From the NCBI GenBank assembly GCA_001769535.1, contig MEOH01000004.1, positions 1 through 64,000 on the forward strand: DNA of 64,000 nt. The letters are read 5' to 3'. Shown piece after piece: positions 12,977 through 53,809 of this stretch (positions are counted from its first letter, which is position 1; each line of letters starts with the position of its first letter). The stretch comes from Bacteroidetes bacterium GWF2_38_335. GTDB lineage: Bacteria > Bacteroidota > Bacteroidia > Bacteroidales > GWF2-38-335. A model generated the notes under the pieces. It was given only the letters and a program-made list of their open reading frames with translations, had not been told where the DNA came from and ran no database searches. The position numbers were made by a program, and so were the translations under genes.

Positions 12977-15900
12977 TTACAAACGGGTCCTTAGTCCAAC
13001 AACGAGAATATCATCAATCTGGCGGGATTCACCTTTCCAATCATTGAAGTTTTTTTCAAGAATTTGCTTCTGTTCAGGTAGCGGTTTACTGCTCATTTCA
13101 ATGAGAAGTTCTTCGAAACGTGCGGTCATAAATTTCTGATTCATTGATCCGCCAAACTGGTCCTGAAAACCATCCGTGTAAAGATAGATAACCGAATCTT
13201 CGGTAAGCGGGATGGTATGGTTGGTGAAAGCAACTTCATCAGTTGAAGAGAAAAAGCCTCCTATGGAAAAAATGTCCCCTTTAATGGAGTTTGTTCGGTC
13301 TTTAGAAACAACAAGCACGGTATGGTTTGCCGAAGCGATTTGAATTTTTTGTGCTTCAAGGTCGATACACACAATAGAAACATCCATTCCGTCGTCTTGT
13401 GATGATTCGGAACGGTCATTTTGTTTGAGGGCCATCACAACCTGCCTGTTGAGGGTTTCAAGAATTACTGATGGTTTGTATTTTTTCTTTTCTTTGACAA
13501 TCTGGTTGAGCAGGGTGTTTCCGATCATGCTCATGAAGGCTCCCGGAACGCCATGGCCTGTGCAGTCAGCAACTGCAAAGAAAATTTTATTTTCAGTTCG
13601 ATGGTACCAGTAAAAGTCTCCGCTTACAATATCCCTGGGTTTGAAGAAGACAAATGAGTCGGGAATATCTGCTTTGATTTCATCATCGGAAGGCAGAATG
13701 GATTCCTGGATTTTTTTAGCATATATAATGCTGTCGGTAATTAGTTTGTGACTGTTTTCAAGTTCCTCTTTGGCCATTTCAAGCATATCTTTCTGCGACT
13801 GGATTTCTTCTTTTTGTTGAAGAATTTCCTCCTCGGCGCTTTTAAGTTTGCTGATATCTGAGTCAATGGAGATGACTTTGGTAACATTGCCATCTTTATC
13901 GAGAATGGGAGTAAGAGTAGTTTGTGTCCATAATCTTCCAAAAATAGTTTTGGACATGGATTCGTAGTGGATGGATTTTTTCTCGTTGATGCACTTGGCC
14001 CAAACCTCGGCAATATTAGGATTGGCGCTTGATTTCATCAGGTTTGATCCTTTATTCTGAATATAAGTTTCAAAGGTATATCCGAATAAACGTGTCAGAC
14101 TTTCATTTATCCAGAGTATATTGGCTTCGGCATCAAGCAGCATGATGGCATTGTCTGTTTCGCGGGCAACAACAGATAGTTTCTCCAGCTCCACATTGGC
14201 CAGTTCGAGCTGATCCCTTTGTGAAAGAATTTCTTCCTTTTGCCGGTTTACTTCTTCTTCGGCCAGTTTAAGTTTGTCGATGTCAGATTCAATGATTACA
14301 ATACGCTTAACATTTCCTTTTTCATCAAGAACGGGGGTAAGGGTGGATTGCAACCATATTTTTTTGGATTTTGTTTCGAAACGCGAACTGTATGAAACAG
14401 ATTTTTTTGTATGGATGCAGCGATTGAAAATATCAAGGATCTGATCGCTTGAGCTGGTGTTTTTGATGTTTGTACCCCGTTCTTTTTTAAACTCTTCGAG
14501 GGTGTAGCCGTAAAGTTTTGTAAAGGCATCGTTTACCCATTCAAAATTCCCGTCGGCATCCATAATCAGGATTGAGTTGTCGGTTTCGCGGGCAACAATT
14601 GAGAGTTTATCAAGCTCAGAATTAATATCAATCAACTGTTCATTTGCAGCCTGAAGTTCTTCCTTTTGCTGGTGGACTTCGGCTGTGCGGTCTTTAATAA
14701 GCCGCTCAAGTTTTTTGTTGTTTGATTTCAATCTGATGGTATATAACCAGGCAATCAGCAAAATCAATAATATTCCGGCAATGAAATAAAGTATATAGGC
14801 AAGTATAGTTCTTTTTAGCGGCGGGTTAACAGTGAACGGGAATTCGGCAATAATGCTTTCAACCCCATAAATATTGCGGGCCTTAACCTTGAAAGTGTAA
14901 CTGCCCTCATATAAATTGGTAAACTCGGCAGAGTTTTTTTTGCTCCAATCAGACCATTCATCACTGAATCCTTCGAGATAGAATGAATATTCAATTTCTT
15001 TTTCCTGCTCATAAAACAACCCTGAAAACTCAAATGAAACGGTATTGAATTCGTAATCTATATCCGGATTGATTCTGAATTTATTGTTCAAGGTGCCCAA
15101 AAATATTACGGAATCTTTTCCTATGCTCACTTTTCGCACAAGCACAGGAAATTTTTTGTCATATTTCTTTTTCACTGCAGGGTCAAAGCAGTATAATCCT
15201 TCGGATCCGCCAAACCAGAAATATTTTTTATTTTCGTCGCAGTAGATTGAGAAAATCTGTGAAGCTTTGGGAATAATTTTAAAGGGAATGCTGTCAAGAA
15301 AAAACTGGTTGTTTCTTTTTATCAGCAAATCAACACGGTTGCTGCCCAGGTGAAGGAGTCTGGCATTTTCTATTTTATCTGTGATGGTCTGGAAATTTTG
15401 CTTATTAATCAGCAGACTCAGTTTTTCATCCTTTTCAAAAATATTTCCGGTTTTTTCTCTTGTTGACTGTTCGTTGAATCTGAAAATACCTTTTTCAGTT
15501 GAAATATACAGTTCGTCATCAATTATAACAGCACCACCCAACTGAATTTTGGGTAATCCGTGACGACTATCGTAAACATCTGTGGGAGCATTAATTGTTA
15601 CCGAATCTGCAAGTCTGAACCTAATCATACATGAGTCGGTACGGGTAGCCCAAACATTTCCTTTATTATCCTGCAGGAAATAAACAACTTCATGTTTAAT
15701 TGCGCCAAAGGTGCCGGCAAACTTCATGGAGTTGCCCTGAATTTTTAAAATAGAAATGCCGTCGCGCGAAGAAGCAATAACAAAGTTGGGATCAGCTTTG
15801 GATTGTGCAAAATATCTGAGGTTTTCAAGCTCAATAACATTTCTTGCAGCTCCCGAAGGAAAAATCTCAAAAACACCAGAACGGGCTCCTGCGTAAAGTT

Positions 15901-17065
15901 TGCCGTTAATCACAGCCGTTGACATAACTCCGTCGATAATTCCTTCAATTTTACGGAAATAGAAATGAGACTGTTCACCATGCATCAGGTTGCCTGAAAC
16001 TTCAAGCCGGTATAAACCCTGCATGGTAGATGCATAAATTTTTCCGTCGTATCTGATTATGGAAGTAACCAACCCGTACAGTCCGTTTTTCTCTCCGAAA
16101 TGAGAAACCGCCGAATTGAGGTCAATGCGGCTGAACCCGTTGTTAAGAAGTACCCAAAGGTTTCCGTTGTTGTCAAGCGAAAGATTGTTGACAATTTCAT
16201 CATGTAATCCGGTTGATTTGTTAAACAGGTTAATCAGCTCTCCCTTTCCGTCAATAATCACAACACCGCCGTAATCGGTTCCGATCACATATTTTTCATT
16301 ATTTATTTTTATTCCATCGTAGATGCCTTTTTCAATGAAATAACTGTTCATGGGAGAATAAAAATGTTCTGCTTTTCCGGTCTTGGCATTGAATCTGAAA
16401 AGTCCGTTGTTTTTTGTGCCAACCAGATATTCATTTCCGCTTATCTGCAACAAACTATAAACGGGCATTCCGGCAAAAAAACCATTATCCACAGCTTGTA
16501 TTTTATCGTTTGAAAACACGCCCAGTCCCTGATCTTTCACATATACATATATGCTGTGCGAATTTTTGAACATCTTAGTTGTTCTTTGCCCATGTTCAAT
16601 AACTCTGATTTGCCCATCATTTAGAATAAATAATTTTGTAAGCCCGTTAAAAATGACATCTTCGCCATTAAAAATAATATCCCTTATTTCAAAACCTACA
16701 TCTTTGGATCTTAGTTTATCCTGAAGAGAAACTTCTTTAATTGCCCCAAGAGAATCTGGTTCCAGATAACCAAACACCCCCTGTCCGCCATAGTAAAGTC
16801 TGCCATCCGGTGCTTTTTCAAGCGCCCTGCATACACCTGAAGTTAAAGCCCGCCAGTTACTGCCATCATATTCCAGCACGCCGGTTCCGTTTCCTATATA
16901 AATCATTCCCCGATTGTCCTGAGTAAAACACCAGTTTTGGGAATGAAAATTGTATTCGGTGGGCGTGTAGTTCTGAATAAATGGCACACCAATGTTATTC
17001 TGCCCGCTGCAAACTGCAGTGAAAATAGCAAATAACAGAAATATGCCGGTTTTTAATCTTTTCAT
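12977..17065 (-). CDS. Propeller-Y_Y_Y-PAS-PAS-SpoIIE membrane sensor phosphatase
   Basis: This 1362-residue sensor has a signal peptide (1-21) and a large periplasmic region of two-component-regulator propeller repeats (about 30-650). A Y_Y_Y domain (about 672-740, with SFYLEGFSDEWSDWS) and one transmembrane helix (about 757-778) follow. In the cytoplasm two PAS domains (about 822-950 and 962-1075) are joined by coiled coils. They begin with nearly the same sequence (ARETDN) and look like an internal duplication. The C-terminal SpoIIE phosphatase (about 1140-1362) keeps VSGDFYW, DCTGHGVPGAFMS and QIDDILVVG. The periplasmic part resembles Bacteroidota hybrid two-component sensors, but the output is a Ser/Thr phosphatase instead of a kinase. 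It heads an operon with the TPR-SpoIIE gene. Ligand and target are unknown. Confidence 0.92.
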   Translation of the reverse strand: MKRLKTGIFLLFAIFTAVCSGQNNIGVPFIQNYTPTEYNFHSQNWCFTQDNRGMIYIGNGTGVLEYDGSNWRALTSGVCRALEKAPDGRLYYGGQGVFGYLEPDSLGAIKEVSLQDKLRSKDVGFEIRDIIFNGEDVIFNGLTKLFILNDGQIRVIEHGQRTTKMFKNSHSIYVYVKDQGLGVFSNDKIQAVDNGFFAGMPVYSLLQISGNEYLVGTKNNGLFRFNAKTGKAEHFYSPMNSYFIEKGIYDGIKINNEKYVIGTDYGGVVIIDGKGELINLFNKSTGLHDEIVNNLSLDNNGNLWVLLNNGFSRIDLNSAVSHFGEKNGLYGLVTSIIRYDGKIYASTMQGLYRLEVSGNLMHGEQSHFYFRKIEGIIDGVMSTAVINGKLYAGARSGVFEIFPSGAARNVIELENLRYFAQSKADPNFVIASSRDGISILKIQGNSMKFAGTFGAIKHEVVYFLQDNKGNVWATRTDSCMIRFRLADSVTINAPTDVYDSRHGLPKIQLGGAVIIDDELYISTEKGIFRFNEQSTREKTGNIFEKDEKLSLLINKQNFQTITDKIENARLLHLGSNRVDLLIKRNNQFFLDSIPFKIIPKASQIFSIYCDENKKYFWFGGSEGLYCFDPAVKKKYDKKFPVLVRKVSIGKDSVIFLGTLNNKFRINPDIDYEFNTVSFEFSGLFYEQEKEIEYSFYLEGFSDEWSDWSKKNSAEFTNLYEGSYTFKVKARNIYGVESIIAEFPFTVNPPLKRTILAYILYFIAGILLILLIAWLYTIRLKSNNKKLERLIKDRTAEVHQQKEELQAANEQLIDINSELDKLSIVARETDNSILIMDADGNFEWVNDAFTKLYGYTLEEFKKERGTNIKNTSSSDQILDIFNRCIHTKKSVSYSSRFETKSKKIWLQSTLTPVLDEKGNVKRIVIIESDIDKLKLAEEEVNRQKEEILSQRDQLELANVELEKLSVVARETDNAIMLLDAEANILWINESLTRLFGYTFETYIQNKGSNLMKSSANPNIAEVWAKCINEKKSIHYESMSKTIFGRLWTQTTLTPILDKDGNVTKVISIDSDISKLKSAEEEILQQKEEIQSQKDMLEMAKEELENSHKLITDSIIYAKKIQESILPSDDEIKADIPDSFVFFKPRDIVSGDFYWYHRTENKIFFAVADCTGHGVPGAFMSMIGNTLLNQIVKEKKKYKPSVILETLNRQVVMALKQNDRSESSQDDGMDVSIVCIDLEAQKIQIASANHTVLVVSKDRTNSIKGDIFSIGGFFSSTDEVAFTNHTIPLTEDSVIYLYTDGFQDQFGGSMNQKFMTARFEELLIEMSSKPLPEQKQILEKNFNDWKGESRQIDDILVVGLRTRL

Positions 17066-44748: not shown

Positions 44749-45444
44749 ATGAAACCAATTTCCGAAGGCGACAGCGAATTTATCTGTGATATTCAGGCTC
44801 CATGTTTTCAAACGCTTACACCCGAAGAAACTGAATTGATCAAGGCGGGAAAAACACAGGTGCTTTTCAGAAAGGGAGATAACCTTACCAAGCAGGGAGC
44901 ATTTGCCTCGTATGTGCTTTTTATGATTAAAGGTGTTGCCAGACAATATGTTGAAGGCGATAACAATAAAACCTATAACCTGAAAATTATTAGTCCGGGC
45001 GAATTCATCGGACTCTCCTCAGTTTTCAATAAAAACACCTTTACTTATTCATCGGTGGCTCTTACCGACAGCCATGTATTTTTAATTGAAAAGGATGTTA
45101 TTGCAAAAGTTGTGAAAAGCAGTGGTGGATTTGCATATAATATCATCAGAAGGTATTGTGAAGCCAATGACCGGCTTTATAAAAACCTGAACATGGTTGT
45201 TTTCAAACAAATGAATGGCAGGTTGGCCGAAACATTGTTGTATTTGAATTCATTCCGCAGAACATTCCCTGATATTTTCAAAATGCTATCCAGAAAGGAG
45301 ATTGCTGATTTTGCAGGAATTTCAACGGAAAGCACAGTTAAACTTCTTAAAAGTCTTGAAGTTGAAAAAGTGGTTTCACTGGTTGAAAAGGACATCATCA
45401 TTACCGATGAGGCAAAGTTGGTAGTAATTAGCAAAAACGGATAA
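44749..45444 (+). CDS. Crp/Fnr-family transcriptional regulator
   Basis: The 231-residue protein has a cyclic-nucleotide-type sensor domain (about 20-140, with FRKGDNLTKQGAFASYVLFMIKG, LKIISPGEFIGLSSVF) and a C-terminal HTH_Crp domain (about 150-225, with MLSRKEIADFAGISTESTVKLLKSL). The residues that would bind cAMP (RxSE motif) are not evident and the Fe-S cysteines of Fnr are missing. The ligand is therefore unknown. The adjacent class III adenylate cyclase gene at 45576-49277 and the divergent redox operon are possible partners. It begins just after a terminator, so it may depend on read-through or on a promoter overlapping the terminator. Confidence 0.87.
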   Translation: MKPISEGDSEFICDIQAPCFQTLTPEETELIKAGKTQVLFRKGDNLTKQGAFASYVLFMIKGVARQYVEGDNNKTYNLKIISPGEFIGLSSVFNKNTFTYSSVALTDSHVFLIEKDVIAKVVKSSGGFAYNIIRRYCEANDRLYKNLNMVVFKQMNGRLAETLLYLNSFRRTFPDIFKMLSRKEIADFAGISTESTVKLLKSLEVEKVVSLVEKDIIITDEAKLVVISKNG

Positions 45445-45575: not shown

Positions 45576-48500
45576 TTACAGCATTCCCTTAAGTTTCTCG
45601 AGTTGGTTGGCCTTATTCACATTTCTCAGTTGCCGTGCAGTTTCTGTAAAATACTGATGTGTTTCGATAAATTTTAGTTGCATACGGTTCCATTCCTCAA
45701 TGGTTTTCACCTTGTTGCGCTCAAAAAGTTCTCTGAAAAGGTTTTGAGAAACGGGAATAAAATCGCCTCTTCCAAGGTAATCGAGATCGGCATCACAGAG
45801 GATTTCCTCCAAAAGATTTTTGGGTTCGGGCGGATGTTTTGTCGAATAAATCAATTCGCAAATAGTTTGAACCTGACCATCGGTATAGTCATAGCGCGGG
45901 AGCATATCCTGAGCGATTTTTATTCCCAGCAGTTCATGGTCGTCGTAGCCGATGGTAAACCCTGTATCATGGAAAATTGCGGCAGTTTTAACCAGCAGCA
46001 TATCTTCGTCTGAAAGACCTTCGGCGCGGCCCAGGAGCTCAACTTGTGTGATCACATCCACGGTATGTTTCAGGTTGTGGTAATACAGGTTTTTAGGCAA
46101 TTCTTTTTCCATTTTGTTCATAATCAACTCTTCAATATCGCTGAGGCGGATGAGCTGAAACTTGGTTTTGAATTTTTGGTTTGGTTTAATGCCCAGGGGA
46201 TCTTCAGAGTATTCGGGTTGTAATCTGTTGACAAAGTACATGTCAATTTCACCTTTGTATTTTACAGGCATTTTTCCACGGTATTCACAATCAAAATATT
46301 CCTTGATCAATTCGTGGGTATACCCGGTAATATTAACTTTTCCCACTGCGCCCGATGATTCCATCCGACTCGCAATGTTAACCGTATCGCCCCAGATGTC
46401 GTAGGTATATTTTTTTGTGCCGATTACTCCGGCGATAACCGGACCGGTATGAACTCCGATTCTAAGTCCCCATACAGGATGATTTACAGATGATTCCTGA
46501 AAAACTTTTTCCATTTGGCGTTGCATGTCAAGGGCGGCGAGCACCACTTCGATGGGGTTGGTTCGGTTTTTCTGGGGAATTCCGCCTGCGCACATATAGG
46601 CATCACCGATTGTTTTGATTTTTTCGATGTTAAACCGTTCGACAATGGAGTCGAAGTAGAAGAATATTTTATCAAGTTCATCGATCAGGGCTTCGGGATT
46701 CATTTCCTCAGCAATCTTTGTAAATCCCTGAACATCTGAAAACAGAACGGTAACAAGTTTAAATCTTTGAGACTTTGCCTTACCCTCGGTTTTCAATTCG
46801 TCGGCGGTTTGTTTAGGCAAAACGTTGGCCAGCACTTCTTCGGCTCTTTCTTTCTGGATAACCAGTTCTTCAGTTCGTTCCCTGATAACTTCCGAAAGTT
46901 TATGTTTTTCCTGCGCATGCTGGTATTCGCGGTACTTTACGATAGCTAAAATGAGCGTGCCGATAAGAAGCAGGTAAATGAGATAAGCCAGCCAAACCCT
47001 GTAAAAAGGGGGTCTCACTGAAAATGTATATTGCGCTTCGTTGGTAACGTTTCCGTATTTGTCCTTTGCCTGAACCCTGAAAGTATAAGTCCCTTCGCTG
47101 AGATTGGTATATTCTTTCATGTTGGTTTTTGACCAGGCAGACCATTCTTTGTCGAATCCATCGAGGAAATATCTGTAAAGAATTTTGCCTGTTGAATTAA
47201 AAAGTGGTGCGGCAAATTCAAACCTTACGGAGTTGAGGTTATAAGAAAGGTCGTTTATGAGGGAATCACTGCCCATAATTCCCCCATTATAAATTATAGA
47301 GTCTTTTCCGCATATTACCGAACGGATAAGCGTATATTCTGTTGGTTTTTTAATGTCTTTGTGCGCTGAACTGTATCTGATAAGACCATCAAAGCCGCCA
47401 AACCAAACAACACCGAAATCGTCGGGATAAATGACTTCAACCGTGAAATTATCCATGACCTGGAATTGGGCAAATTGTTTTTGGAAACGTCCGGTTTTTT
47501 TATTTTTCGCACAGACCATTGTTTTGCGCTCATAGGAATTTAGATATCCGGAGCTCAACCAAAGGTTGTTTTTATTGTCTTCCCTGATTGGATAAACCCA
47601 GGTGTTGCCCTGACTAAAATCAATTCCAAGTACAGTATCCGGGTAAAAGGTTCCTGTTATATTGTCAAAACGGTAAATGCCTTTCTGAGAAGAAAAAAGT
47701 ACGCCAACAGAGGTTGCATAAACATCAATCCACCTGTGGTTTTCGGGTAAGCCGTGAGAATTTTTAAATTGCTGAACATTGGCATCAACATAGAAACCTG
47801 ATGAAACATCGGCTTTAAAGACTCCGTCATAATTGCTTCCCAGCCAAAGATTTCCATGTTCATCTTCGGCAATGGTCCTGATATGATTTGCAAGTTTATT
47901 AAACTTTCCAAGTTCATTCCATTTTCCGTTTTCAATTTTTAAAGCTGAAACTCCGGTACTTTTTGCAAGGTAAATCACCGAAGGATCGGATTTCGACCTG
48001 TAAAAATCCTCAAACTGTCCAAGGGAAATCAATTTACCCTGAAACATATCAATTTTATATAGTCCGTCAACTGTAGAAACCAAAAGATCTCCCTCAATTG
48101 AAAATAAACGGTTGCAGTTTGTGGTAATGCCTTCGACCGGAATAAATTTTTCAGATTTTGCACATTGAGTTCCTTTTGCAAAAAACACTTGATCAGAGAG
48201 ATAATAAACACCCTGTGTGGTGGCGATGTAAAGTATTCCCTCGTGCCTGATAACCGAGGAAACGCCACCCTTTATTCCTGAATTCCAGTTAAAATAAGAA
48301 AATGCCGAAGGAGTTTCAATGCGGCTAAAGCCAAAATTCAGACTGGCCCAAAGGTGATCGGAACGGTCAATGTAAAACTCCAGAATCTCATCATCATTGA
48401 GTCCGTTTTCCTTATTAATATTAAACACCAGATTCCCCCTGTTATCCACAATCACAATTCCACAGCGCTTGGTTCCAAAGGCGTAGTTTCCGTCTGAAAG

Positions 48501-49277
48501 TTTTATTCCGCACTGATAATCGTTTGCCAGAAGAAAATTATCTGCCTGTGTAGGGAAGGGTTTGGGTTCAATATTGTTGTATGTCACAAATCCCAGGCCT
48601 TCAAGTTTCACAAGAATTCCTTTTTCATAGGACAAAACATCCTTCACGGGATTTTTAATAAACCATTCGCCACCGGTAAGAAGGGTAAAAACGCCTTCTT
48701 TATATTTCATGAGACCAACCCCGGGTTTAAAAACAAAAACACTGCTGTTAACCCTGAACGCTTTATAATCTTCTTCAGAAACATCAACCAATTCAACGCC
48801 ACCACTGTAATATCTGAAAAATTTATTGCCGGCTACAAACAAGACTTCATTTTCAACGGGGAGGACTTTGTCAACCTGTCCGAAATTTTTTTGATTTTTC
48901 GGAAGATTGGAGATAAGAGAATAAAAACTCTGTTCGCCGCGGTAATTGGTTTTCAGGCATCCGAAATCATTGTAGCCCCCGGCATATATTATTCCGTCGG
49001 GCCCCGATGCCAGCTTAGGCTCGCCGCTGAGTGAAATAAGCCGCCAGTTGATGCCGTCATACTCAATAATCCCGTTAAGGTTGCCCACATAAAGTACTCC
49101 GCGGTGATCCTGAACTATTGAGTAATTCTGGCTTTCATAGCCATAGTCTTTTGGAGTGAAATTCTGAATAAAGGGCACACCCAGCTCGCCGGATTGAGAA
49201 AATCCTGTATTTTGAATAAAAATAAATAGGAATAAAAATTTAATAATTGTAACTTTATTCGCTTTTAAAAATTTCAT
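45576..49277 (-). CDS. Propeller-Y_Y_Y sensor fused to adenylate cyclase and HD phosphohydrolase
   Basis: This is a 1233-residue membrane signalling protein. It has a signal peptide (about 1-28), a periplasmic propeller region (about 35-660), a Y_Y_Y domain (about 679-745) and a transmembrane helix (about 762-782). In the cytoplasm a coiled coil leads to a class III nucleotidyl cyclase (about 835-1020). Metal-binding Asp848 (FSDVQGF) and Asp892 (IGDAYM) are present. Lys888 and Asp960 fit the ATP-selective pair, so cAMP is the likely product. An HD-type domain (about 1050-1200) ends the protein, with His1067, His1071 (HNLKHTVDV) and His1103-Asp1104 (FHDTGF). Such domains hydrolyse cyclic nucleotides or other phosphoesters. 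Synthesis and breakdown may thus share one sensor. It is next to a Crp-type regulator gene. Confidence 0.92.
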   Translation of the reverse strand: MKFLKANKVTIIKFLFLFIFIQNTGFSQSGELGVPFIQNFTPKDYGYESQNYSIVQDHRGVLYVGNLNGIIEYDGINWRLISLSGEPKLASGPDGIIYAGGYNDFGCLKTNYRGEQSFYSLISNLPKNQKNFGQVDKVLPVENEVLFVAGNKFFRYYSGGVELVDVSEEDYKAFRVNSSVFVFKPGVGLMKYKEGVFTLLTGGEWFIKNPVKDVLSYEKGILVKLEGLGFVTYNNIEPKPFPTQADNFLLANDYQCGIKLSDGNYAFGTKRCGIVIVDNRGNLVFNINKENGLNDDEILEFYIDRSDHLWASLNFGFSRIETPSAFSYFNWNSGIKGGVSSVIRHEGILYIATTQGVYYLSDQVFFAKGTQCAKSEKFIPVEGITTNCNRLFSIEGDLLVSTVDGLYKIDMFQGKLISLGQFEDFYRSKSDPSVIYLAKSTGVSALKIENGKWNELGKFNKLANHIRTIAEDEHGNLWLGSNYDGVFKADVSSGFYVDANVQQFKNSHGLPENHRWIDVYATSVGVLFSSQKGIYRFDNITGTFYPDTVLGIDFSQGNTWVYPIREDNKNNLWLSSGYLNSYERKTMVCAKNKKTGRFQKQFAQFQVMDNFTVEVIYPDDFGVVWFGGFDGLIRYSSAHKDIKKPTEYTLIRSVICGKDSIIYNGGIMGSDSLINDLSYNLNSVRFEFAAPLFNSTGKILYRYFLDGFDKEWSAWSKTNMKEYTNLSEGTYTFRVQAKDKYGNVTNEAQYTFSVRPPFYRVWLAYLIYLLLIGTLILAIVKYREYQHAQEKHKLSEVIRERTEELVIQKERAEEVLANVLPKQTADELKTEGKAKSQRFKLVTVLFSDVQGFTKIAEEMNPEALIDELDKIFFYFDSIVERFNIEKIKTIGDAYMCAGGIPQKNRTNPIEVVLAALDMQRQMEKVFQESSVNHPVWGLRIGVHTGPVIAGVIGTKKYTYDIWGDTVNIASRMESSGAVGKVNITGYTHELIKEYFDCEYRGKMPVKYKGEIDMYFVNRLQPEYSEDPLGIKPNQKFKTKFQLIRLSDIEELIMNKMEKELPKNLYYHNLKHTVDVITQVELLGRAEGLSDEDMLLVKTAAIFHDTGFTIGYDDHELLGIKIAQDMLPRYDYTDGQVQTICELIYSTKHPPEPKNLLEEILCDADLDYLGRGDFIPVSQNLFRELFERNKVKTIEEWNRMQLKFIETHQYFTETARQLRNVNKANQLEKLKGML

Positions 49278-49357: not shown

Positions 49358-50185
49358 GTGCAAATTAGTAAAAATACCATACTTGTTCCCTGGGATTTTA
49401 CAGAAGTGACAGAGAATGCCTTAAGCCACGCCATAAAGATTGCAGGCAGGATAAAATCTACTGTGACACTGATACATATTGCTTCTTCGAAGGACAGGGT
49501 CAGGGATTTTGAAAAACTTGCTGAAGAGGATTGCAATAGAGCATTTAACAAATTTGGATTGAAACCCGGATTTATAGTGAAATCGGGAAGCATTTTCTCA
49601 ACCATTAATGATACGGCTGTCGAAATTGAAGCCGCCATGGTTGTTATGGGCACTCATGGTGTAAAGGGAATGCAAAAACTTACAGGAAGCTGGGCACTCA
49701 AAATTATTGCCGGGTCAAAAATCCCATATATTGTTGTTCAGTCAGCACCCCAACATGATCATTACAAAAAATTGGTTTTTCCTGTCGACCATAAAACCGA
49801 AAACAAAGAGAAGTTGCTGTGGGTGGTGTATCTCTCAAAATTTTATAAACTTGAAGCAGAGCTTTTTATTCCTTTAATTCAGGATGAAGATACTGCAAAA
49901 AAGATTCAGGTTAACCTAAATTTTACAAAAAAATATCTGGCTGATAATAACATTGAATTTAATGTTTCTGTTGCACCAAAAAAGGGTTCGTTTGGGGAAC
50001 AAACAGTTGAGTTTGCGCATGAAAGAGATGCAGACCTGATTCTGATCATGACCACCAAAGACATAAAATTTATTGATTACCTGTTTGGTCCCACTGAACA
50101 ACAAATTATTGCAAACAGCGCCAAAATTCCGGTTATGTGCATTAATCCGCGGATGGATTTGAAAAAAATTGGTATTTATGCGTGA
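49358..50185 (+). CDS. Tandem universal stress protein
   Basis: This 275-residue cytoplasmic protein has two UspA-like domains, about 1-135 and 145-275. The first has ILVPWDFTEVTENALSHAI, the ATP-binding-type VVMGTHGVKGMQKLTGSWALKI and PYIVVQSAP. The second has LVFPVDHKTENKEKLLWVV and ends NSAKIPVMCINPRMD. The start is GTG at 49358, as there is no ATG in the frame near the first conserved residue. It is divergent from the cyclase gene, with 80 bases between the starts. Its role, likely stress adaptation or ATP binding, is inferred from the family. Confidence 0.88.
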   Translation: MQISKNTILVPWDFTEVTENALSHAIKIAGRIKSTVTLIHIASSKDRVRDFEKLAEEDCNRAFNKFGLKPGFIVKSGSIFSTINDTAVEIEAAMVVMGTHGVKGMQKLTGSWALKIIAGSKIPYIVVQSAPQHDHYKKLVFPVDHKTENKEKLLWVVYLSKFYKLEAELFIPLIQDEDTAKKIQVNLNFTKKYLADNNIEFNVSVAPKKGSFGEQTVEFAHERDADLILIMTTKDIKFIDYLFGPTEQQIIANSAKIPVMCINPRMDLKKIGIYA

Positions 50186-50293: not shown

Positions 50294-53200
50294 ATGTCTA
50301 CATTGCATAAAATAATTTTCAGGATAGCTTTGGCTGTCTTTTTTTCCAATCTGGTAACAGGAGTTTATTCACAGATTGTGATCAATGAAGCCTCGAACAT
50401 GAATGCAACGATTATTGCCGATGAGGATGGGGAATTTGAGGACTGGATAGAACTTTTCAATAACAGTTCCGATCCTGTCAGCCTCTTTGGATGGTCAATT
50501 TCTGACAATCCTGCTGATCCGCAACAGTTTATTTTTTCAGATGTAATTATTGAATCACATGGCTTCAGGCTTCTTTATGCTTCAGGAAAAAGCAACGGAA
50601 CGCTGAACAATAACTGGCAGGTGCCGGTAAGTGCTTCTGAAACATGGAACTATCTTCCGGGGTCGGATACCATCTCTTTATCCTGGATCAACAACGGTTA
50701 TAACAGTTCCGCGTGGCTCACAGGTCCCGGGGGTTTTGGATATGCTGATGGAGATGATGAAACAGTTTTAAGTGCCACCGTTTCGGTTTTTATTCGCAAA
50801 ACATTTAACGTGACTTCTGTTGCTGATGTTTACGGTGCCATACTTTATGCAGATTATGACGACGGGTTTGTGGCATATCTCAATGGAACTGAAATCACCC
50901 GAAGTATGAACATGGGCGATACCGGATGGGATGATGTTGCAACCTACGACCATGAAGCAATTATGTATCAGGGATATGATCCAGAGGTTTTCCCGATTGA
51001 CTCGGCGCTGGTCCAAAGTCTGCTGGTGCCCGGAGAAAATGTTCTGGCCATTCAGGTTCATAACACTTCACTCGCATCATCTGATCTTTCTGCAATTTTC
51101 ACCCTTGCATTAAATATGGCGCCCGAGGTTTTTGCCTACCCGCCATACTCCTCAGGTACAACAGGAAATATTCACCTTAATTTCAAACTTAATAACTCGG
51201 GAGAAACAGTTTTTCTTTATAATCCTGCAGGTGTTTTGCAGAGCCAGATTCTGGTTTCCGGACTCGGTATTGATCAATCTTTAGGATGCGTTACAGACGG
51301 ATCTGCAACAATTGGTTATTTTATGGATCCTACACCGGGCTCCACGAACAATACTGATTCATATTCGGGCATTGCGCCCGTTCCAACCATGAACCCCGGT
51401 TCGGGCTTCTATGAATCAGGTGTTTCAGTTACACTGACTTCACCCTCACCTTTGTATTATGTGAGATATACCTTAACCGGAGATGAGCCAACAGCCTCTT
51501 CTCCAATTTATATTTCTCCGATTAATGTGGGATCAACCAGAGTGGTTAAAGCCCGATGCTTTGAAATTGCCGGAAATTTACTTCCTTCCCCGGTCATTAC
51601 AAATACCTATGTTATTGAACCTGAAGAAAATATTTCTCTGCCCGTTATTTCTATCAGCACCGACAGTCTGAACCTCTATGGAGACAATGGAATCTACGAT
51701 AACTGGTCAACCGACTGGAAAAAGCCATGTTATATCGAGTATTTTGAGAAAAACGGAAATCATATTTTTGAACAGCGTGCCGGAATCAAGATTGACGGAG
51801 GGGCAGGGGGAAGTAGAAGCAATGCCCAAAGAAGCTTCAGGGTTGAACCCGACCATAATGTATATGGTGACGGATACATCAATTATCCGCTCATACCCGA
51901 CAGATTCCCGGTAGATAAATTTGGCAACATTTATCTCAGAAATGGCAGTAATTATTGGAATTCATTGCCATACAAGGAAGCAGCCATGCAAAGAGTTATG
52001 AAAAACACCAACAATCTCTATCTTTCATATACTCCGGTAGTAGCTTTTCTCAACGGAAAATACTGGGGCGTTTACGAACTCAGGGAAAAAGCTGATCAGG
52101 ACTGGATCGAAAATATTTATGGGGGAGATAAAAACGAGGTTGATATTTTATCCATGAGTTACTGGTACGGACCAAATGTGCTGAGGGTGACTGAAGGATC
52201 GGATACCGCCTTTTACACCATGCGCGATTACATCAACAACGGTGAAGAAGAAACAGCCGAATATCTGAATCAGGTAGGGACCATGCTTGATATTGATAAT
52301 TACATCGACTATATGGCCACAGAAATCTGGTACAACAATACAGACTGGCTTTGGAATAACATGAAAATTGCCAGAAGCAGGGCCACAGATAACAAATGGA
52401 AATATGTCATACAGGATATGGAGTTGGGTTGTAACGGATGGTCCAATATCTACACCAACATGTATGAAGTGATGTTCAACGACCCGGTGGATATTTACAC
52501 TCCTCCCACCAACGATATGTTTTCTGAGATGTTTTACCATTTGTTACACAATCCGGATTTTAAAAGACTTTTCATTAACCGTTTTGCAGATTTGATGAAC
52601 ACAGTGCTGCTACCCGAAAATACAATTCCGGTCATCGAACAAATACACGCCCAGATCAGACCCGAAATGGAAAGACAGTATGAAAAATGGGATGCCGGAA
52701 TGACACTGGCTGCTTTCGATGGCAACAAAAACTATTTTGAAGAATATTTTTTAACCCGCAGCCCCATTGCTTTTGAACAAACGCGCGAAGAATTTGATCT
52801 TGAAAGCATGGTTCAGGTAACACTCAATGTAGAACCGGAAGGAGCCGGAAGGATTTTCATCAGTACTATTGAGCCTCAGGAATTTCCATGGACTGGCACC
52901 TATTTTAACGGAAACCCCGTGAAAATTACTGCGGTACCCAATCCGGGATATACTTTTGAAACATGGGAATCAAGCGACCTTGCCTTTGATTTGTCAAACG
53001 CTGTGTTTGATGGAAATATCTCAAATGATAATACATTTACTGCTGTTTTTTCGGGCGAGGCTGTTCCGGTTAATGTAGTGGTTTCGGAAATCAACTACAA
53101 CAGCAGTCTGGGTTTCCCCACAGGTGACTGGATCGAATTGTACAATTACGGACCAGAAGCAGTAAATCTTGATGGATGGGTGGTAAAAGATGAAGAAGAC

Positions 53201-53809
53201 ATGCATGAGTTTGCCATCACAGGTGTAACAATCAATTCGGGTGAAAGATTGATCATTTCAGCTGACACTACTATGTTCAAGGCATTGTTCCCCGGAGTAA
53301 CGCTGATTCCCGGTGAACTAAACTTCGGATTTGGTCCGGATGCCGATGAAGTAAGATTGTTCAACACCTTTGGAGATTTGGTAACCAATGTGCCCTATAT
53401 GGATTCCGATCCGTGGGACTCGTTAGCCGATGGTACAGGCATGACGCTGGAATGGCTCGAATTTGAACTGCCACAAACCTCACCTGCATTTTGGTTTGCA
53501 GGGTGTGTGCCGGGGGGTACTCCGGGTGAAATGTTTACACCATGTGGTGTTTCGGTCGAAAAACATGATGTCGAGGAAGTATTCTTATATCCGAATCCGA
53601 CAGATGGAGAAATTTTTATTTATACAGGCTCGTCAGAGATTAACAATATCAGGGTTTACAACCTTCAGGGATTGTGCGTTTATGAATCTACAAACTTGAT
53701 AAATAATAAGATTTCTTTACCCGAAAATATTTTGGACGGATTATATTTTGTAATGGTTGGCTATGATGATGGAAGGAATATTTCGAAAAAAATTATCTTA
53801 AAACGATAG
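50294..53809 (+). CDS. T9SS-exported CotH kinase-like / lamin-tail protein
   Basis: This is a large secreted protein of 1171 residues. It has a signal peptide (1-26), a lamin-tail domain (about 28-100), a beta-sandwich (about 110-280), a chitobiase-like C-terminal domain (about 360-440) and a CotH domain (about 450-800, with AGIKIDGGAGGSRSNAQRSF, GKYWGVYELREKAD and QDMELG). A bacterial repeat domain (about 845-915), a second lamin-tail domain (about 930-1010) and a T9SS sorting domain (about 1095-1171, FLYPNPTDGEIFIY) follow. CotH proteins of spore formers phosphorylate spore coat; here the secreted target is unknown. The QDME motif of the CotH active site is kept. It has no operon partner. 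Confidence 0.9.
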   Translation: MSTLHKIIFRIALAVFFSNLVTGVYSQIVINEASNMNATIIADEDGEFEDWIELFNNSSDPVSLFGWSISDNPADPQQFIFSDVIIESHGFRLLYASGKSNGTLNNNWQVPVSASETWNYLPGSDTISLSWINNGYNSSAWLTGPGGFGYADGDDETVLSATVSVFIRKTFNVTSVADVYGAILYADYDDGFVAYLNGTEITRSMNMGDTGWDDVATYDHEAIMYQGYDPEVFPIDSALVQSLLVPGENVLAIQVHNTSLASSDLSAIFTLALNMAPEVFAYPPYSSGTTGNIHLNFKLNNSGETVFLYNPAGVLQSQILVSGLGIDQSLGCVTDGSATIGYFMDPTPGSTNNTDSYSGIAPVPTMNPGSGFYESGVSVTLTSPSPLYYVRYTLTGDEPTASSPIYISPINVGSTRVVKARCFEIAGNLLPSPVITNTYVIEPEENISLPVISISTDSLNLYGDNGIYDNWSTDWKKPCYIEYFEKNGNHIFEQRAGIKIDGGAGGSRSNAQRSFRVEPDHNVYGDGYINYPLIPDRFPVDKFGNIYLRNGSNYWNSLPYKEAAMQRVMKNTNNLYLSYTPVVAFLNGKYWGVYELREKADQDWIENIYGGDKNEVDILSMSYWYGPNVLRVTEGSDTAFYTMRDYINNGEEETAEYLNQVGTMLDIDNYIDYMATEIWYNNTDWLWNNMKIARSRATDNKWKYVIQDMELGCNGWSNIYTNMYEVMFNDPVDIYTPPTNDMFSEMFYHLLHNPDFKRLFINRFADLMNTVLLPENTIPVIEQIHAQIRPEMERQYEKWDAGMTLAAFDGNKNYFEEYFLTRSPIAFEQTREEFDLESMVQVTLNVEPEGAGRIFISTIEPQEFPWTGTYFNGNPVKITAVPNPGYTFETWESSDLAFDLSNAVFDGNISNDNTFTAVFSGEAVPVNVVVSEINYNSSLGFPTGDWIELYNYGPEAVNLDGWVVKDEEDMHEFAITGVTINSGERLIISADTTMFKALFPGVTLIPGELNFGFGPDADEVRLFNTFGDLVTNVPYMDSDPWDSLADGTGMTLEWLEFELPQTSPAFWFAGCVPGGTPGEMFTPCGVSVEKHDVEEVFLYPNPTDGEIFIYTGSSEINNIRVYNLQGLCVYESTNLINNKISLPENILDGLYFVMVGYDDGRNISKKIILKR

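Follow-up and report, generated by a model that had tools for sequence, protein, structure and literature searches.

The window, a 64,000-nucleotide stretch of a Bacteroidetes bacterium GWF2_38_335 contig (MEOH01000004.1), carries on its reverse strand (45576..49277) an intact open reading frame with an ATG start. It encodes a protein of 1233 aa in which a propeller, a Y_Y_Y domain, a transmembrane helix, a putative adenylate cyclase and an HD domain follow one another. The N-terminal part (47202..49277) comprises a signal peptide (approximately aa 1-28) and a periplasmic propeller (to approximately aa 692), detected as Reg_prop in Pfam (best stretch aa 463-482, E = 2.5e-11) and by a PDB search in which aa 461-743 matched the HTCS sensors 3v9f and 4a2l (E = 1.1e-9 and 2e-9). 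Next come Y_Y_Y (aa 693-754; 47016..47201; E = 1.5e-15) and a single hydrophobic helix at aa 761-782 (46932..46997), the predicted transmembrane segment, which was picked by eye, as was the signal peptide. The remainder consists of a class III cyclase catalytic domain (aa 835-1017; 46227..46775), assigned from its residues and from Pfam (Guanylate_cyc, E = 5.1e-55, 186.3 bits against a cut-off of 21.9), and the HD domain (aa 1040-1233; 45579..46160), assigned from Pfam (aa 1069-1164, E = 1.1e-7), alignments and a model with a pLDDT of 95. The CYC-HD model had a pLDDT of 86.8. All Pfam domains exceeded their curated cut-offs, bearing out the original prediction that a propeller/Y_Y_Y sensor, a class III cyclase and an HD domain share one chain; a histidine kinase output was absent from the Pfam scan of the protein. 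A periplasmic propeller and Y_Y_Y are found as well in the hybrid two-component sensors of Bacteroides (3v9f, 4a2l), whose output, however, is a histidine kinase/response regulator instead of a cyclase and a putative hydrolase.

The catalytic residues sought were all found. In the cyclase, the four named in the original prediction are present, the metal-binding Asp848 and Asp892 and the base pair Lys888 and Asp960, and so is the transition-state pair Asn967 and Arg971. Since Lys888/Asp960 is the ATP-type pair of adenylate cyclases, we infer ATP as the substrate and predict cAMP as the product. The nearest solved structures are mammalian adenylate cyclases. In the HD domain, the residues His1067, His1071, His1103-Asp1104, His1114-Glu1115, Asp1162 and Asp1164 are present, and these include an HNxxH...HD...D metal site of the class I phosphodiesterase (PDE) type (H1067, N1068, H1071, H1103, D1104, D1162). 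In an unfiltered alignment of 103 HD domains, conservation was 98% for H1067, 97% for H1071, 98% for H1103 and D1104, 100% for D1162 and 67% for N1068. We quote these unfiltered figures, as the invariance of the metal ligands in our alignments A2 and A4 is partly built in (A2 was drawn from HD-motif seeds; A4 holds 86 of 122 rows, HD-dead rows having been removed beforehand).

Comparisons of the HD domain with known families pointed in two directions. PDEase_I (PF00233) matched the window's HD domain with 13.8 bits, below the cut-off of 24.8, and at E-values up to 1 it matched 36 of 86 members of the HD family (best 2.3e-4), fewer than HD-CE (63 of 86). The sole PDEase_I-like match in 198 Bacteroidota genomes was itself a member of the family (22.1 bits, again below the cut-off). 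The GYP motif of HD-GYP c-di-GMP phosphodiesterases was absent from aa 1040-1233. The modelled HD domain superposed on PDE10A and PDE7A over 188-190 of 194 residues (2.4-2.6 Å, Z about 17), but YpgQ, 2pq7 and 3b57 matched the fold as well as the PDEs did (Z = 17.4-17.7, VIA-align). Among the rows listed, the YpgQ/YedJ/2pq7 type superposed over 160-177 residues and the PDEs over 187-190. Foldseek placed YpgQ-type HD hydrolases above the PDEs, with an E-value of 0.001 reached only by 2pq7. A PDB search with the single HD sequence gave nothing significant; when sequence was compared with solved structures, the first five matches were HD hydrolases (2pq7, Lin1889, YedJ and relatives, 2.9e-10 to 1.1e-6) and the best PDE reached 0.004.

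The architecture is recurrent. Of the 41 genomes searched (own genome included), 17 had a cyclase-HD unit, whether joined to the sensor or not, and the full architecture including the propeller was found at ten named loci. Together with near-full-length matches at 36-42% identity in three genomes (G005, G032, G037), these loci exclude a chance arrangement. In three other genomes (G013, G027, G028) the HD domain is a separate gene directly behind a sensor-cyclase, and at one locus (L191) it is fused to a different type, a GAF-PAS cyclase. It also exists as a free-standing protein. A scan of viral contigs yielded one locus. In a phylum sample of 69 HD loci (about half of some 140 HD matches, mostly better-scoring, hand-picked and without the own genome), a cyclase lay in the same ORF or flank in 10, compared with 0.21 expected. 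In the literature searched, which leaves out most subscription papers, we found no description of a bacterial cyclase-HD fusion or of an HD-PycTM protein.

A second frequent partner was a PycTM-like part, fused to the HD domain at 26 of the 69 loci and confirmed by Pfam as PycTM at L038, L105 and L104. These proteins of Bacteroidota carry the same HD family on a membrane effector domain of a type that responds to cyclic nucleotides, although without a cyclase on the chain. Their genomes contained a class III cyclase for 15 of 26 loci (11 of 26 lacked a PF00211 match), as against 39 of 43 loci without a PycTM fusion. Overall, a PF00211 match was absent from 30 of 107 HD genomes, or from 28 of 101 when six genomes having only weak HD matches (E = 1e-7 or worse) are left out. 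The two groups also differ at position 1200. A QxxF motif at 1200-1203, similar to the invariant Gln and the Phe clamp with which class I PDEs bind the base, was present in 51 of 51 close relatives, with Gln in 42 of 86 wide ones. Gln1200 occurred in 16 of 16 cyclase-fused, nine of nine YitT-linked and 13 of 36 other HD domains, and only one of 21 PycTM-fused ones, the remaining 20 having another residue. The contrast between cyclase-linked and PycTM-linked domains fits a change of base, or mere kinship.

We scored both active sites in 121 cyclase-HD proteins, the cyclase being called intact when D848, D892, N967 and R971 were kept and the HD domain when H1071, H1103, D1104 and D1162 were kept. 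Both sites were intact in 69 proteins, only the HD site in 32, only the cyclase site in 20, and neither in none. Residues 888/960, outside the definition, varied in 24 of the 89 rows scored as cyclase-intact, and in five of the 32 rows scored as cyclase-lost Glu replaces the first metal Asp, so that these cyclases could be active. The set was freed of copies of the window (L001, L021), duplicates (L069 and L070, of L009 and L011), a truncated copy of L068 (L010), the other cyclase architecture (L191) and fragments (L016, L067, L165 and one L163 ORF). As the relatives were the best 80 of 487, the counts describe the sample; search patterns included the HD motif, and HD-dead rows entered only as neighbours of HD-intact seeds or via the cyclase search. 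On the tree (quick search, LG+G4, long branches flagged), the state of the cyclase changed at least 14 times, and loss of the HD site mapped to a single change in one clade of 20 proteins. Because of this single change, the empty class is not a result of independent replicates. Reciprocal loss as statistical proof of antagonism was likewise dropped, HD loss being one event and the paired sign test (p = 1) powerless. Retention of the HD metal ligands in close homologues, the yardstick set with the original prediction, gave a mixed outcome: 14 of 15 propeller-type proteins and 101 of all 121 cyclase-HD proteins have them, and the clade of 20 has lost them.

With moderate confidence, we read the protein as a one-protein transducer in which a sensor-driven cyclase makes cAMP and the HD domain most likely opens the same cyclic nucleotide. 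The propeller and Y_Y_Y, of a type known from hybrid two-component sensors, would bind a ligand, probably a carbohydrate-like one. The signal would pass via the single membrane helix and a coiled coil and alter the pairing of the two cyclase domains in a homodimer, and the paired class III domains would convert ATP to cAMP. The C-terminal HD domain would act as a metal-dependent hydrolase, most likely on the same 3',5'-cyclic nucleotide, so that one chain could both raise and lower its messenger. That the HD domain might break down the product of its own cyclase had been suggested originally, and the suggestion is favoured rather than proven by the repeated joining of the HD domain to cyclases and PycTM, the HNxxH site, the PDE-like fold and the complementary, separable loss of sites, as far as these can be read from sequence.

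Action on another phosphoester, the other option of the original prediction, keeps some probability because YpgQ/2pq7-type hydrolases tie with the PDEs in fold and win in sequence. The HD domain would then be an active hydrolase of a different nucleotide, e.g. YpgQ/YedJ-like on NTPs or dNTPs, travelling with cyclases through a shared sensor readout or the tuning of nucleotide pools. The first ranks in Foldseek and the lack of a PF00211 match in 30 of the 107 HD genomes fit such an activity, which we nevertheless regard as rather unlikely: the domain is fused or adjacent to cyclases in several settings and joined to PycTM as well, and it combines HNxxH with a sub-threshold PDEase_I signal. The Gln1200 contrast would also fit a change of base in a cyclic-nucleotide hydrolase, though kinship would account for it too. 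The stand-alone hydrolases YpgQ, YedJ and 2pq7 share fold and metal motif with the HD domain, and we know of no cyclase fusions among them.

It is improbable, in our judgement, that the HD domain is chiefly a regulatory or dimerization module, binding the messenger (or metal) and controlling the cyclase, with only minor catalysis of its own. The clade of 20 does retain the domain although its metal site is lost while the cyclase site is intact, so part of the HD role may be structural, and at 17 of 17 tandem loci the HD-dead gene adjoins a paralogue with an intact HD domain (the intact one being the search seed). Yet 101 of the 121 proteins keep the ligands, including the 32 with a broken cyclase site, which tells against a regulatory role because the regulator of a dead cyclase would need none, and the domain also occurs free-standing. 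Quite improbable is a Pycsar-like defence system, rather than sensory regulation, in which the cyclase would make a pyrimidine or guanine cyclic nucleotide. PADLOC models of PycC match the cyclase (E = 1.3e-17), and other genomes carry fusions of the HD family with PycTM; the PycC match, however, may reflect no more than common class III ancestry, Lys888/Asp960 is an ATP-type pair, PycTM (the Pycsar effector type searched) is absent from the window's genome, and among the gene's neighbours are thioredoxin, thioredoxin reductase, OsmC-like, MntP and Usp genes.

If the two-way transducer that we favour is correct, it has counterparts elsewhere. Synthesis and breakdown are joined on one chain in GGDEF-EAL proteins (c-di-GMP) and in RelA/SpoT (ppGpp), both with paralogues in which one domain is dead; their synthesis domains are unrelated to the cyclase, from which a cyclic mononucleotide is expected. 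Closer is CAPE (COMBINED AC with PDE), known from liverworts and streptophytes, which is described as a class III adenylate cyclase combined with a class I cAMP PDE (PMC5159850, PMC8115329), and in whose PDE half mutation of either of two His residues four positions apart abolished PDE activity (PMC5159850). Both proteins would place a class III cyclase and a putative cyclic-nucleotide hydrolase on one membrane-linked chain. In the window's protein the HD part is C-terminal, 194 aa long and below the PDEase_I cut-off, whereas the PDE of CAPE is described as N-terminal, bona fide class I and eukaryotic; a propeller, present here, is not mentioned for CAPE in the available text (PMC5159850).

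A built-in on/off switch, if the HD domain breaks down the messenger, would concern bacteria with little known cAMP signalling. To our knowledge, cAMP use in Bacteroidetes is poorly understood; a census of 2005 recorded no adenylate cyclases for the four Bacteroidetes genomes available at that time (PMC1183210). The cyclase-HD proteins, their partner gene and the synthase-only or hydrolase-only paralogues make the question testable. As a possible but doubtful extension, the HD family might form a new class of bacterial cyclic-mononucleotide phosphodiesterases across Bacteroidota, fused to cyclases as an off-switch and to PycTM-type membrane effectors as a messenger-clearing brake, with residue 1200 (Gln versus Asn/Ser/Thr) tuning the base. 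In Bacteroidales, a cAMP circuit operating without canonical CRP might be made up of this HD domain, the propeller sensor, the adenylate cyclase and a UspA-family protein, with paralogues specialized as synthase-only or hydrolase-only forms. A phosphodiesterase activity would bear also on the HD-PycTM proteins of the phylum sample.

A Crp/Fnr-type regulator gene (cNMP_binding and HTH_Crp_2; 44749..45444, forward strand) lies convergent to the cyclase-HD gene. The gap of 131 bases to which the original prediction drew attention is real, but adjacency did not hold up as a recurrent feature: a Crp/Fnr relative within 1000 bases occurred in one of 120 other rows, many of which have short flanks, and none besides the window's lay within 350 bases. 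In the exception (L188), the Pfam-confirmed gene is the next one upstream, at 372 bases on the same strand. CRP's Arg-Ser/Thr phosphate cassette for cAMP was seen by eye in none of the seven cNMP_binding proteins of the genome, the Crp/Fnr-type regulator included. That none of them resembles a canonical cAMP receptor counts against the favoured reading of the cyclase-HD protein. Given the poor conservation and the missing cassette, a dedicated effector role of the Crp/Fnr gene was dropped, and it is probably not part of the module. The conserved neighbour of sensor-type cyclase-HD genes is instead a UspA-family gene, which adjoins 31 of 53 sensor-branch rows (20 rows not observable) and in the window is divergently transcribed with two Usp stretches (49358..50185, forward strand). 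Among 22 divergent-type Usp neighbours, the glycine motif had a spacing of 8 instead of 9 in 14 and a spacing of 9 in four, and four had neither form; the 14 same-strand neighbours had neither. Binding of the messenger by the UspA-family protein is speculative. Other neighbouring genes encode thioredoxin, thioredoxin reductase, an OsmC-like protein and MntP.

The gene at 45576-49277 (minus strand) forms an uninterrupted ORF of 1233 aa. Pfam assigned to its product a Reg_prop propeller in the periplasmic part, followed by Y_Y_Y (aa 693-754), Guanylate_cyc (aa 835-1017) and HD (aa 1069-1164) domains; a signal peptide (first 28 residues) and a single hydrophobic helix (aa 761-782) were recognized by eye. 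In a PDB comparison, the periplasmic part matched the solved hybrid two-component sensors 3v9f and 4a2l. The cyclase domain retains both metal Asp residues, the Lys/Asp base pair and the Asn/Arg pair, and the HD domain retains H1067, H1071, H1103-D1104, H1114-E1115, D1162 and D1164. The intact ORF, the domains and these catalytic residues confirm the original prediction of propeller sensor, cyclase and HD domain on one chain. A 1362-aa propeller/Y_Y_Y protein at 12977-17065 (minus strand) carries PAS domains and a SpoIIE phosphatase output (Pfam), so this genome wires the same sensor type to different kinds of output.

Most likely, judging from its sequence, the protein is an adenylate cyclase that would be gated by the periplasmic sensor, with the HD domain as its own phosphodiesterase-like off-switch. 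We infer that the cyclase acts on ATP and the HD domain on a cyclic mononucleotide, that the chain dimerises and that its activity is coupled to the sensor. Plant CAPE provides a precedent for such a union of synthesis and breakdown enzymes: according to PMC5159850, its class III cyclase and class I phosphodiesterase (PDE) sit on a single chain, and assays of the separate domains measured both activities.

Among 41 genomes (the own genome and 40 relatives), near-full-length matches were found in G005, G032 and G037. In three further genomes, the match was divided between two genes, the separate HD gene starting no more than a few bases from the end of the sensor-cyclase gene (G027 and G028) or about 15 bases after it (G013); each gene was taken to start at the first in-frame start codon. 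The cyclase-HD fusion was present in 17 of the 41 genomes, own included (the G007 copy is truncated at the end of its contig). Scanning GTDB contigs yielded 80 named loci, the best 80 of 487 relatives; 79 were titled Bacteroidota or a subgroup, and one (L118) Chlorobiota. Among the loci listed, the proteins came in three forms: (i) a sensor-less form (~465 aa); (ii) a short form (~620 aa), with Y_Y_Y in L114, the single member scanned with Pfam; and (iii) the full propeller form, at no fewer than 10 loci (L124, L128, L136, L137, L142, L150, L156, L164, L173 and L187). A contig of a viral collection (L191) encodes a GAF-PAS-cyclase-HD chain (Pfam) whose cyclase appears by eye to be of a different type.

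The two active sites proved separable. Of 121 cyclase-HD proteins, 69 kept both sites, 32 only the HD site and 20 only the cyclase site, while none had lost both; both were intact in 14 of 15 proteins of the propeller type. In the 32 cyclase-lost proteins, the first metal Asp was replaced by Asn, Tyr, His, Gly or Ser (22), replaced by Glu (5; these cyclases are possibly still active), or kept with loss of Asn967 (5). A quick tree required a minimum of 14 changes in the cyclase state and a single one in the HD state. The sensor-less branch (68 proteins) kept the HD metal site throughout and showed repeated cyclase decay; one branch on the sensor side had lost the HD site and retained the cyclase in 20 of 20 proteins. 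At all 17 tandem loci, a cyclase-intact, HD-dead gene adjoined an HD-intact gene, the latter being the search seed. In the own-genome paralogue L051, Asn replaces the first metal Asp in the cyclase, and the HD site is intact. Opposed activities acting on a single messenger would be expected to leave such a pattern, as in GGDEF-EAL proteins, although the one HD loss carries no statistical claim. Tandem loci such as L114, L119 and L140 have the order sensor-less cyclase-HD gene, apparent secreted propeller protein, HAM1/RdgB-like gene (both called by eye) and membrane cyclase with degenerate HD.

Searched alone, the HD domain matched in 107 of 296 genomes of the phylum (six by weak matches only). 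HD and cyclase occurred together in 77 genomes, HD only in 30, cyclase only in 84 and neither in 105 (Fisher p = 6e-6, uncorrected for kinship). At 69 hand-picked, mostly better-scoring HD loci (about half of ~140 matches), a cyclase lay in the same ORF or fetched flank in 10 cases versus 0.21 expected from cyclases per genome if these were placed at random in genomes of 4 Mb. In 26 of the 69, the HD was joined to a part resembling PycTM, the membrane effector domain of Pycsar defence (phmmer, three fragments as queries; confirmed by Pfam on three proteins); in L035, L038, L105 and others, the HD is fused N-terminally to this part. The genome bore a cyclase for 15 of these 26 loci, compared with 39 of the 43 others; the remaining 11 PycTM loci lie in genomes without a match to the class III cyclase model PF00211. 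A third group comprised YitT/DUF2179 membrane proteins joined to or adjoining the HD at 10 loci (L023, L026, L027, L029, L033, L034, L037, L039, L046 and L071); a class III cyclase was nearby in five, which suggests that YitT is tied to the same signaling. Some stand-alone HD genes adjoin a gene read as NAD-dependent DNA ligase (L060, L061 and L062; L061 also UspA) or a small SixA-like histidine phosphatase gene, as read (L079, L081, L082, L084 and L085).

Structure did not separate PDEs from stand-alone HD hydrolases. With the AlphaFold2 model of the HD domain (pLDDT 95), Foldseek ranked 2pq7, YpgQ and class I PDEs together, only 2pq7 reaching E = 0.001. The two groups also tied by VIA-align Z: PDE10A (17.8; 189 residues, 2.5 Å), 2pq7 (17.7; 160, 3.1 Å), 3b57 (17.6; 164, 2.3 Å), YpgQ (17.4; 171, 2.7 Å) and PDE7A (17.1; 190, 2.6 Å). 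In the sequence profile search, YpgQ/YedJ-like proteins led (first five, 2.9e-10 to 1.1e-6); class I PDEs followed from 0.004, over the HNxxH...HD stretch. Up to E = 1, PDEase_I was seen in 36 of 86 HD members and HD-CE in 63, and the sole PDEase_I-like match in 198 Bacteroidota genomes (22.1 bits, under the cut-off) was a member of this family. Gln occupies position 1200 in all 16 cyclase-fused HDs, in 3 of the 4 that are cyclase-adjacent and in all 9 YitT-linked ones. It was seen in 1 of the 21 PycTM-fused HDs, where Asn, Ser and Thr prevail, and in 13 of the 36 remaining HDs; because this pattern tracks subfamily lines, kinship accounts for it as well as function. By the curated PDEase_I test, the HD domain falls outside the class I PDEs, but may work like one. 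The suggested two-way control of the messenger is supported in part: intact sites and the recurrent association with cyclases and PycTM favor it, while the single HD loss and the PDEase_I result weigh against it. More widely, this HD family may represent a bacterial cyclic-nucleotide phosphodiesterase.

In the sensor branch, 31 of 53 cyclase-HD genes have a UspA-family gene no more than 350 bases away (20 not judgeable, with a flank under 900 bases); in the sensor-less branch, 3 of 68 do (8 not judgeable). The window gene was entered by hand from its own coordinates. In L173 and L187, HydF-like and Lgt genes are found upstream in place of UspA. A link to the neighboring Crp/Fnr gene is not supported: among 120 other cases, one (L188) has a relative of this gene no more than 1000 bases away. 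By eye, the CRP-type Arg-Ser/Thr cassette was absent from all seven cNMP_binding proteins of the genome. In L188 (1215-3363), the cyclase-HD gene has MntP-like and Crp/Fnr genes upstream; in the window, too, both gene types occur less than 10 kb from the cyclase-HD gene. A cNMP_binding domain inside an apparent ZIP-type metal transporter of the own genome (L194, G000:C18) is a possible cyclic-nucleotide effector. At 50294-53809 (plus strand), the window encodes a 1171-aa protein that combines CotH and lamin-tail domains with a T9SS sorting tail.
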